Shown here: positions 33,455 through 50,053 of the stretch, in pieces
How the letters are laid out: the number at the start of each line of letters is the position of its first letter
Position numbering within the stretch: position 1 is the stretch's first letter
Source: Psychrobacter sp. Ps6
Lineage (GTDB): Bacteria > Pseudomonadota > Gammaproteobacteria > Pseudomonadales > Moraxellaceae
Length of the DNA: 64,000 nucleotides
NCBI RefSeq assembly: GCF_022129235.1
Contig: NZ_JADQAI010000001.1
Span: 248,001 to 312,000 of the forward strand
Direction of reading: 5' to 3'
Notes under the pieces: model-generated
Database searches by the model: none
What the model was told of the DNA's origin: nothing
What the model saw: only the letters and a program-made list of their open reading frames with translations
Position numbers and translations under genes: made by a program

Positions 33455-34274
33455 ATTAGTCATGCCCTTCTTGAAGTGGGTAGGTGGAAAACGCCAACTT
33501 ATAACTGAGATTGAGCCGTTGCTTCCTAGCCGTATATCTACTTACTACGAGCCATTTTTGGGTGGTGGCGCAATATTTCTACACATGCAACCAAAAAAAG
33601 CAGTGATCAATGATTACAACTCTGAATTAATCAATGTTTACGAAACGATTAGAGATGATGTAGATGCTCTTATTGAACACTTAGCTATTCATGAAAATAA
33701 CTCCGAGTACTTTTATCGGATAAGAGCTCTAGATAGGCAGGAAGGTTTTGTTGAGTTAACTAAGATAGAGCGTGCATCTCGTGTTATTTACCTAAATAAG
33801 ACCTGTTTCAATGGACTATATAGAGTCAATAGTTCAGGTGAGTTTAATACACCTTTTGGGCGTTATAAAAACCCTAATATAATCAACGAAACTGTTCTGC
33901 AAGCGGTAAGTAATTACTTACAGAATAATGATATTGTATTGCGTAATGGAGATTTTGAGGAAGCTGTTAAGGGAGCACGTAAAGGCTCCTTTGTTTATCT
34001 TGATCCACCGTATGATCCTGTCTCGAAAAGCTCAAACTTTACAGGATACGTTCAAGGTGGTTTTGGTGATGATGAACAAGTAAGGCTTAGAGATACTTGT
34101 ATCAATCTAAATAAAAGGGGTGTTAATTTCCTTTTGTCTAACTCTGCTACTGCTTTTATGAAAGAATTATACAAAGACTTTGAGATAATTGAGGTAGGCG
34201 CTAGTAGGAGTATTAACTCTGTGGGGAGTAAAAGAGGTGAGGTTAAAGAGATATTGGTAAGAAATTATGAGTAA
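33438..34274 (+). CDS. Dam-like (D12 class) N6-adenine DNA methyltransferase
   Basis: 278 residues from a GTG start at 33438, chosen because AGAGG lies 6 bases upstream and because the frame further upstream is inside the XRE gene; ATG 33462 is an alternative. Motifs in alpha-class order: motif X FLKWVGGKRQL (11-21), motif I EPFLGGGA (38-45), and motif IV DPPY (189-192, in FVYLDPPYDPVS). It belongs with Dam/M1.DpnII/M.MboI. The nuclease gene overlaps its 3' end by 8 bases, so methylation and cleavage genes are coupled. Confidence 0.9.
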   Translation: MAKKNKLVMPFLKWVGGKRQLITEIEPLLPSRISTYYEPFLGGGAIFLHMQPKKAVINDYNSELINVYETIRDDVDALIEHLAIHENNSEYFYRIRALDRQEGFVELTKIERASRVIYLNKTCFNGLYRVNSSGEFNTPFGRYKNPNIINETVLQAVSNYLQNNDIVLRNGDFEEAVKGARKGSFVYLDPPYDPVSKSSNFTGYVQGGFGDDEQVRLRDTCINLNKRGVNFLLSNSATAFMKELYKDFEIIEVGASRSINSVGSKRGEVKEILVRNYE

Positions 34275-48398: not shown

Positions 48399-49067
48399 TC
48401 AGTCTTTTTTAACGCTAATAACGTCTAGATTTGGGTAGCTGAGCAATATCTCATACTCCTGTGAACCGCGTCTGGCCTCAATGTCAAAGACACCACGCTT
48501 GTTTTTTTCTTCAAGCTCGATATCTTCGACACGGTAACCCATAGACCTTACTTTATTGATGGCACGGCGCTTGATCGCTGGGTAACGTGATTCTCTTTTA
48601 ATGCTGTCCTCTATATCACCTTTTTTATAGCGCTTGTCATTCTTATATTTGCCATTATCTTTATGCTTATCTTTTTTATAACGGTCATTGTCTTTTTGAT
48701 ACTTGTTATCTTCCCAGTTGTTTGACCATGATCTTTTATTTGAGCTGATGAGTTTTAGAGAAGGGTAAGTGTATGTTAGCTCATAGAGCTGATTATTCTT
48801 TTTGGCAAAAGCTATCATTGCGCGATCGCCGCGATAACTGTCAGAGCGAATGTCTATAACTTGATAGCCTTTGCGGCGTAAGTCTTGGCGTAGCTGCTGG
48901 CTGACACGGTTGAAGCTATCGTTTTGCCGATTATTATCACCACGATATATGGGCTGGTTATCATAGCCTGGACCAACGACAGCACAACCGACAGTGGTAC
49001 CCAATAGGGCAACGATAAGACCAGTAGATATGGCTGTCTTAAAGGAGAACGGTTTTAGAGTTTTCAT
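48399..49067 (-). CDS. Lipoprotein with two PepSY-like repeats, paralogue of its neighbour
   Basis: 222 residues with lipobox TTVGC (Cys28). Repeat 1 (about residues 50-110) contains LRQDLRRKGYQVIDIRSDSYRG and YELTYTYPSLKLISS. A strongly basic linker rich in Lys, Asp, Asn and Tyr follows. Repeat 2 (about 160-222) contains IKRRAINKVRSMGYRVEDIELEE and YEILLSYPNLDVISVKKD. It is transcribed away from the probable Rsm-type RNA at 49380, and the GacA-type palindrome lies between the two. Function unknown. Confidence 0.75.
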   Translation of the reverse strand: MKTLKPFSFKTAISTGLIVALLGTTVGCAVVGPGYDNQPIYRGDNNRQNDSFNRVSQQLRQDLRRKGYQVIDIRSDSYRGDRAMIAFAKKNNQLYELTYTYPSLKLISSNKRSWSNNWEDNKYQKDNDRYKKDKHKDNGKYKNDKRYKKGDIEDSIKRESRYPAIKRRAINKVRSMGYRVEDIELEEKNKRGVFDIEARRGSQEYEILLSYPNLDVISVKKD

Positions 49068-49305: not shown

Positions 49306-49323
49306 TGTAAGCATATGCTTACA
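49306..49323. promoter_or_regulatory. GacA-type upstream activating sequence
   Basis: Perfect 18-bp palindrome TGTAAGCATATGCTTACA, which equals the TGTAAG-N6-CTTACA consensus for GacA binding upstream of rsmX, rsmY and rsmZ in pseudomonads. It is centred about 65 bases upstream of the inferred RNA start. Binding by GacA is inferred from the match. Confidence 0.85.
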
Positions 49324-49343
49324 TGCAATGACGTTTACGCGAC

Positions 49344-49372
49344 TTAACATGAGAGTGAGAGTTAGGCATTAT
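49344..49372 (+). promoter_or_regulatory. Promoter of the GGA-hairpin RNA
   Basis: -35 TTAACA (49344-49349) and -10 CATTAT (49367-49372) with a 17-base spacer, giving an inferred start near 49380. The suboptimal -10 fits an activator-dependent promoter. Confidence 0.55.
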
Positions 49373-49379
49373 GGTTACA

Positions 49380-49656
49380 CGGCATTAGGGAATGTGACTC
49401 AAGGATTGAGTTGACCGCATTAAGGATAATGATTCAATTATTAGCATCAGGATGATAATAGTAGTTGAAGTAAGGACACATACCCATTGCTGATAGCAGC
49501 AGTTAAGATTAGATGCTGTATGCAGTAATAAGGGCAGGATGCCCAGTATCACAATCACTGAATATTTGTGCAAGGATGCATAGAAAGCAGTCGTGATAGG
49601 TAACATGGATAGTTAACAATAAAACCGCATAACAATTTATTGCTATGCGGTTTTAT
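49380..49656 (+). ncRNA. Probable CsrA/RsmA-sequestering regulatory RNA (CsrB/RsmY/RsmZ type)
   Basis: About 277 bases with no ORF. Eight GGA motifs occur at 49389, 49403, 49424, 49450, 49474, 49537, 49574 and 49607. Most are in the loops of small perfect hairpins: CATT-AGGG-AATG (49383-49394), ACTCA-AGGAT-TGAGT (49397-49411), CATT-AAGGAT-AATG (49418-49431), ATC-AGGAT-GAT (49446-49456), GGGC-AGGAT-GCCC (49532-49544), TGCA-AGGA-TGCA (49569-49580) and TAAC-ATGGATA-GTTA (49601-49615). A(A/G)GGAT in a loop is the CsrA-binding consensus. A GacA-type palindrome and a promoter lie upstream and a strong terminator ends it. Such RNAs titrate CsrA/RsmA and release its target messages when GacS/GacA is active. 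The exact 5' end is inferred. Confidence 0.85.
49621..49654 (+). terminator. Intrinsic terminator of the GGA-hairpin RNA
   Basis: AAAACCGCATA pairs with TATGCGGTTTT, and the stem extends inward through CAAT/ATTG with one mismatch, ending in a T run. Confidence 0.88.
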
Positions 49657-49768: not shown

Positions 49769-49798
49769 AAAAACCGCATAAATTTCTATGCGGTTTTT
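49769..49798. terminator. Second terminator with the same stem, probably for csbD
   Basis: AAAAACCGCATA pairs with TATGCGGTTTTT around a 6-base loop. The stem is the same as that of the terminator 115 bases to the left. Position fits the 3' end of the minus-strand csbD transcript. Confidence 0.85.
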
Positions 49799-49849: not shown

Positions 49850-50053
49850 TTAGTAATTGTTTTCGCGGCGCCAGTCATCTACTTCGCGCTCAGCATGGTC
49901 TTGAGCATGGCCATAACGCTCTTGTACACGGCCAACCAGCTTATCACGGCTGCCTTCAACTTGATCTAAATCATCATCGGTCAGCTCGCCCCATTTTTGT
50001 TTTACTGAGCCTTTTAGCTGTTTCCATTCGCCTTTTAGAGTATTCTCGTTCAT
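49850..50053 (-). CDS. CsbD-family stress protein
   Basis: 67-residue hydrophilic protein: MNENTLKGEWKQLKGSVKQ then KWGELTDDDLDQVEGSRDKLVGR, the CsbD signature, ending with a charged tail. CsbD-like proteins (YjbJ in E. coli) are abundant under general stress; the molecular role is unknown. Preceded by an AGGAATAT ribosome binding site. Confidence 0.93.
   Translation of the reverse strand: MNENTLKGEWKQLKGSVKQKWGELTDDDLDQVEGSRDKLVGRVQERYGHAQDHAEREVDDWRRENNY

Follow-up and report, generated by a model that had tools for sequence, protein, structure and literature searches.

The window analysed here is a stretch of 64,000 nucleotides from the draft genome of Psychrobacter sp. Ps6 (3.48 Mb in 195 contigs; window = G000:C1:248001-312000). 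It holds a predicted small-RNA gene between a probable lipoprotein gene and a csbD-like gene, with the following features in window coordinates.

48399..49067, minus strand: probable lipoprotein gene, divergent from the RNA gene (lipoprotein call made by eye from the N-terminus)
49306..49323, plus strand: predicted GacA-type upstream activating palindrome, TGTAAG-CATATG-CTTACA (exact match)
49329..49349, plus strand: second conserved promoter block, TGACG-N9-CTTAACA (90-locus conservation profile)
49370..49375, plus strand: -10-like element TATGGT (TATAGT in the majority of relatives, TATAAC in the sister gene)
49380..49655, plus strand: predicted small RNA of ~275 nt (fold, alignment, covariation and R1 search)
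49381..49491, plus strand: 5' domain, closing stems round three GGA hairpins (consensus fold; modelled as R1)
49397..49411, plus strand: GGA hairpin 1, ACTCA-AGGAT-TGAGT (GGA in 29/29 aligned relatives)
49418..49431, plus strand: GGA hairpin 2, CATTA-AGGA-TAATG (GGA in 27/29)
49433..49469, plus strand: GGA hairpin 3, a long stem with an ATC-AGGAT-GAT tip (GGA in 29/29)
49474..49476, plus strand: single-stranded GGA, in AAGGAC (28/29)
49532..49544, plus strand: GGA hairpin 4, GGGC-AGGAT-GCCC (GGA in 28/29)
49568..49581, plus strand: GGA hairpin 5, TGCA-AGGA-TGCA (GGA in 29/29)
49601..49615, plus strand: GGA hairpin 6, TAAC-ATGGATA-GTTA (GGA in 29/29)
49620..49655, plus strand: terminator hairpin TAAAACCGCATA...TATGCGGTTTTA with a 12-bp perfect stem (conserved hairpin)
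49850..50053, minus strand: csbD-like gene, convergent with the RNA gene (Pfam PF05532, 76.8 bits)

The lipoprotein gene product has a marginal match to PepSY_2 (PF13670, 24.6 bits; cut-off 24.3). Both flanking genes are found in a P. piscatorii contig (L041), where csbD is 97% and the lipoprotein 96% identical to the window. A second hairpin of the form CCGCAT...ATGCGG, which resembles a terminator on either strand, lies at 49769-49798, ~115 bases from the RNA gene, and is probably the csbD terminator.

Eight GGA motifs were identified in the 281-nt element (49389, 49403, 49424, 49450, 49474, 49537, 49574, and 49607). The sequence-only reading had placed most of them in hairpin loops, and the minimum-energy fold bears this out: six GGA hairpins carry the motif in or at the loop, with the GGA at 49474 single-stranded and that at 49389 partly paired within the closing stem. 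In 300 dinucleotide shuffles, the number of such hairpins averaged 0.54 and never exceeded 3. The GGA count alone is moderately unusual, with at least eight in 0.08% of all 281-nt stretches of the window (both strands, the element itself included; highest count 9) and in 1.7% of 2000 dinucleotide shuffles of the element. The count of A(N)GGA motifs is 8 against a shuffle mean of 2.6, a value reached in 0/2000 shuffles. Both this count and that of GGA hairpins are far beyond chance, and the bare number of GGA is the weaker sign. The fold has a minimum free energy of -83.9 kcal/mol (z -5.3), and equal stability was reached in 0/200 shuffles. The same reading had called the terminator strong; the 12-bp hairpin is indeed conserved, but the adjective does not hold, since the U-tract (UUUUAU) is short and weak and a simple terminator scanner missed the hairpin.

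To evaluate conservation of the element among relatives, we compiled 133 oriented palindrome sites followed by a terminator pattern, which yielded 100 unique sequences: 53 of the window type, 33 of the type of a sister gene described below, and 14 that were excluded (12 on the basis of terminator distance and two by hand, namely L158 and a row from L028 in the wrong orientation). Removal of rows more than 96% identical left 29 window-type and 17 sister-type rows. Rows were picked by an exact 18-mer plus the terminator pattern, and conservation of those letters is thus by construction in these alignments. The 29 non-redundant window-type rows (alignment A1) have a mean pairwise identity of 78%, promoter included. 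Their consensus fold comprises 71 pairs with 97.4% of cells paired, although the alignment used to evaluate covariation is also the one from which this fold was obtained, which favours it somewhat. When the structures were slid by 1 to 3 columns, only 29 to 45% of cells remained paired. Double (compensating) changes were identified in 23 of the 71 pairs compared to a shuffle mean of 10.0, and for each of five measures the observed value was reached in 0/500 shuffles.

Compensating changes are distributed across most of the hairpins. Hairpin 3 is the most variable, with double changes in 10 of 13 pairs and 93.1% of cells paired. Double changes also occur in the outer stem that encloses hairpin 5 (49547-49552 with 49593-49598; 4/6 pairs) and in hairpin 2 (2/4 consensus pairs; 100% of cells paired). 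Hairpin 4 shows a GC to AU double change in three rows. The stem of hairpin 1 is nearly invariant in the 29 rows and is therefore uninformative on pairing, with no covariation either way. The terminator helix is paired in 99.4% of cells of the 29 rows, rows that had been chosen using the terminator pattern. The GGA motifs themselves were kept, in order, in 25, 29, 27, 29, 28, 28, 29, and 29 of the 29 rows (86-100%), whereas trinucleotides of the alignment are on average kept in 64%. The loops thus stay constant while most stems change yet continue to pair, as would be expected if a protein recognizes GGA within loops.

A GacA-type site next to the array had also been proposed. The sequence TGTAAGCATATGCTTACA at 49306-49323 has zero mismatches to TGTAAG-N6-CTTACA, which we take to be the GacA consensus, and is thus a predicted GacA-type upstream site. 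Only two exact sites of this form exist in the draft genome, the other being at C1:483945, and both precede a GGA array. A one-mismatch relative of the palindrome, GGTAAGTAATTACTTACA, is present at window positions 33905-33922. So that loci could be found independently of the palindrome, we constructed a covariance model (R1) restricted to the 112-nt 5' domain, with the promoter excluded, and searched 299 genomes of the family with it. The window's own 5' domain scores 133.7 bits to R1, but it belongs to the training set of that model. The DNA surrounding the 89 matches other than the window's own was then compared, giving 90 loci in all (86 distinct sequences), part of which match by construction given that R1 was trained on 29 of the sequences. 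In 90/90 of these loci, the best match to the palindrome begins precisely 74 nt before the start of the modelled RNA; its half-sites are exact in 85 and carry one mismatch in the other 5, and its spacer is CATATG in 86. Among 1800 base-shuffled promoters, in comparison, none had fewer than two mismatches and six had two.

The 90-locus profile reveals that promoter conservation climbs sharply where the palindrome begins. Downstream are TGACG-N9-CTTAACA and then a TATAGT-like -10 element. The TTAACA within this block (49344-49349) may be a -35 element or a degenerate second half-site for the activator. A promoter scan listed a promoter-like TTAACA-17-CATTAT, and sigma-70-like sites were no commoner than in shuffles (6 compared to a mean of 3.9, sd 2.1). 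Based on the sequence, transcription is predicted to start at 49379-49383. At the other end of the gene, the terminator pattern was matched at 85 of the 90 R1 loci; among the five others, a variant hairpin was recognized by eye in four and none in L303, which corresponds to a weak match among the 90 (G284, 30.8 bits).

Under strict filters, R1 matched once per genome in 90 of the 105 genomes of the genus; no match was identified in the remaining 15 or in any of 194 genomes from other genera of the family. The gene neighborhood is stable: among 48 window-type loci in named contigs, csbD and the lipoprotein gene both lie within 3 kb in 38, and one of the two does so in the remaining 10. TGTAAG-N6-CTTACA occurs twice in 66 of the 105 genus genomes, once in 19, three times in 15, four times in one, five times in one, and not at all in three, two of which (G166 and G228) have an R1 locus whose palindrome carries one mismatch. 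The exact 18-mer was found in 33/36 genus genomes and in 0/21 genomes from other families of the order, with a reversed control giving 0.

The second exact site belongs to a sister array 187 kb away (L003:1501-1780 = G000:C1:483945-484224), which has an identical 18-base palindrome, seven GGA in a 280-nt stretch, and a similar terminator hairpin at its end. The sister gene, predicted to be ~205 nt, sits between prc (a tail-specific protease, S41) and an FKBP-type isomerase gene. Sister-type loci in named contigs are associated with prc in 34/34 cases and also with the FKBP gene in 30. In the 17-row sister alignment, 99.4% of cells are paired, and double changes occur in 12 of 55 pairs, a result obtained in 0/500 shuffles. 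A DNA search with the sister gene gave a match of any kind in 97 of the 105 genus genomes, some of them to the promoter only, and matches extending beyond the promoter in 84.

Tandem arrays were identified beside prc in several genomes. The gene order in P. phenylpyruvicus is prc, RNA, csbD (on the opposite strand), RNA, RNA, and that in P. pasteurii is prc, RNA, csbD, RNA. Three loci (L304, L305, and L306, from genomes G023, G035, and G005) have two or three arrays beside prc, with csbD lying between RNA genes in two of these genomes (G023 and G005). In the third, G035, prc is followed by three arrays, and a csbD match was absent from the 5-kb stretch that was examined. Each of the tandem arrays in P. 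phenylpyruvicus, P. pasteurii, and G035 has 8 to 14 GGA, and the main-type model scored nothing above 19.4 bits on them. These gene orders suggest that an array spanning prc and csbD was ancestral and was split later.

Homologs of the proteins with which such an RNA would act were identified in the genome. A single csrA gene (domain at C42:56856-57011) scores above the Pfam and NCBIfam cut-offs (NCBIfam 118.5 against 73 bits), and residues 1-60 of its product align closely with the CsrA structure 1y00, from Escherichia coli. The gacA homolog encodes a 213-aa response regulator for which the best NCBIfam model is UvrY/SirA/GacA, with a score (240.7 bits) below the cut-off of 280. Screening of genomes revealed csrA in 105/105 members of the genus and a GacA homolog (E ≤ 1e-55) in 104/105, as well as in 286/299 genomes of the family. 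As the candidate GacS, we took a 1165-aa kinase (L214:997-4494) comprising HisKA, HATPase_c, REC, and Hpt domains, an order that we take to be that of BarA/GacS; its best stretch scores 376.5 bits against the BarA model, below the cut-off of 890. A 954-aa kinase (L164) was considered for the same role and dropped, as it lacks a HisKA or Hpt match.

Covariance-model searches did not assign the element to a described family. No family of Rfam 15, including CsrB, CsrC, RsmX, RsmY, and RsmZ, reached its gathering threshold in the window, and among 14 related loci only two tRNAs did so. CsrB (RF00018) gave a weak match to the element over the full model length (16.5 bits, E 0.021; gathering threshold 71), and no CsrB-type match to the sister gene was found even at E values up to 1. 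Rfam membership was therefore dropped for both the element and its sister, which fall below the threshold of every family. The working type of CsrB and RsmX/Y/Z is nonetheless already known, and the Psychrobacter gene is a further member of that kind. Among the open-licence papers listed for Csr, Gac, or small RNAs in Psychrobacter, none describes such an RNA as judged by title, opening of the abstract, or term counts. A 2006 study by Kulkarni and colleagues, reportedly the original genome-wide prediction of RNAs of this type, may already list a Psychrobacter RNA.

RsmX, RsmY, and RsmZ of Pseudomonas are GacA-activated, sequester CsrA-type proteins, and are encoded by several genes per genome (PMC7366521), properties that are here predicted from sequence. 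The Psychrobacter genes differ in length (~275 nt, and ~205 nt for the sister), in having layouts of their own, and in their neighbors csbD and prc. CsrB and CsrC of E. coli also comprise a GGA-motif array, with 22 and 14 GGA, respectively (PMC11882849), compared to eight here. RNAs that regulate RsmA/CsrA have been computationally predicted in the related genus Acinetobacter (ADP1; A. baumannii) (PMC5568370; PMC7366521), and the coordinates in Table 2 of one of these give lengths of 119 and 139 nt (PMC5568370), compared to ~275 nt here. Pf1, Pf2, and Pf3 of Pseudoalteromonas fuliginea are similar in being Csr RNAs of one genus that were recognized by GGA motifs, promoters, and terminators; these have 25, 21, and 9 GGA and are reported as experimentally verified (PMC11882849), unlike the Psychrobacter element, which is known from its sequence.

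Collectively, these observations suggest, with high confidence, that 49306-49655 is a gene, conserved in Psychrobacter, for a small RNA of the CsrB/RsmZ working type that likely sequesters CsrA. The type assignment of the sequence-only reading is very likely correct, and the regulatory role that it envisaged in the Gac/Csr pathway is supported, with three amendments: the RNA reaches the threshold of no Rfam family, it is one of a pair in the genome, and its terminator has a weak U-tract. Two outcomes that would have spoken against this reading did not occur, as relatives retain the GGA hairpins with compensated stems and the genome encodes both csrA and a gacA homolog. An RNA that is conserved, structured, intergenic, and furnished with a terminator hairpin would also be expected of a GacA-controlled small RNA that acts mainly through Hfq-dependent base pairing with mRNAs and in which GGA repeats are incidental. 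We consider this very improbable in light of the retention of GGA well above the trinucleotide background, the compensated changes in the stems, and the persistence of GGA arrays in tandem copies that the main-type model scores at 19.4 bits or less.

A structured DNA or RNA element with no regulatory role, such as a REP-like repeat or a terminator repeat lying between convergent genes, might be suggested by the second CCGCAT...ATGCGG hairpin ~115 bases away. This reading is less probable still and was dropped: R1 has a single match in each of the 90 genomes in which it matches, the gene neighbors are stable, and conservation of the promoter is sharp and begins at the activator site. Least probable of all, to the point of being nearly negligible, is a gene for a small protein. 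Consistent with the earlier claim that no open reading frame is present, the listing of frames gave none of at least 40 aa on the plus strand inside the element. The minus strand does contain an open frame of 73 aa at 49385-49606, but the longest open stretch on this strand is anywhere between 43 and 91 codons among the 29 relatives, element lengths differ among them by amounts not divisible by three, and sequence change follows RNA pairing. The coding reading was dropped, given the lack of a plus-strand frame and of retention of the 73-aa frame among relatives.

In the CsrA-sequestering model, GacS would phosphorylate GacA, which would bind the palindrome and switch on both RNAs; CsrA dimers would then bind the GGA loops and be drawn off target mRNAs, altering the translation or stability of the latter. 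Transcription of the RNA, its control by GacA, and its binding of CsrA are all predicted. A broader proposal, which we offer tentatively and regard as somewhat more likely to be wrong than right, is that the whole direct output of GacA in Psychrobacter runs through two sister sponge RNAs that share one 18-base operator, near-frozen throughout the genus with its CATATG spacer, and that both genes split from an ancestral prc-RNA-csbD-RNA array still standing in P. phenylpyruvicus and P. pasteurii. The locus provides a candidate RNA arm of the Gac/Csr switch for a genus whose genomes encode csrA and a gacA homolog, and with two RNA genes known the pathway becomes testable genetically. The frozen operator and its two exact genomic sites offer a clean system in which to ask if GacA has other direct targets, and the alignments would support new Rfam entries.

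The exact 18-mer was also detected in records from other taxa. Sources included Halomonas, Vreelandella, Legionellaceae, Treponema, Moorena, Paenibacillus, Flavobacteriaceae, and Firmicutes; among the matches listed, 9 of 10 such loci had no run of at least four GGA ahead of a recognized terminator, the exception being L083 from Vreelandella maris with seven GGA. In Cycloclasticus, 4 of 6 loci among the matches listed (L048, L074, L090, and L113) carry 6 to 10 GGA after the 18-mer, which a terminator follows at 182-213 nt, and on this basis the arrays are likely CsrA-sponge RNAs; no Rfam match was found in L090 or L113. A locus on the minus strand of Moraxella sp. Bco_11 (L071) comprises two adjoining arrays, each with TGTAAG-N6-CTTACA, five GGA, and a terminator, and gave no Rfam match. 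In another genus of the same family (g36), TGTAAG-N6-CTTACA accompanied by at least four GGA and a recognized terminator was found in 7 of 30 scanned loci. In five g36 loci (L171, L182, L184, L186, and L198), CAGGA-type arrays follow the site, and the terminator loop itself carries a GGA.
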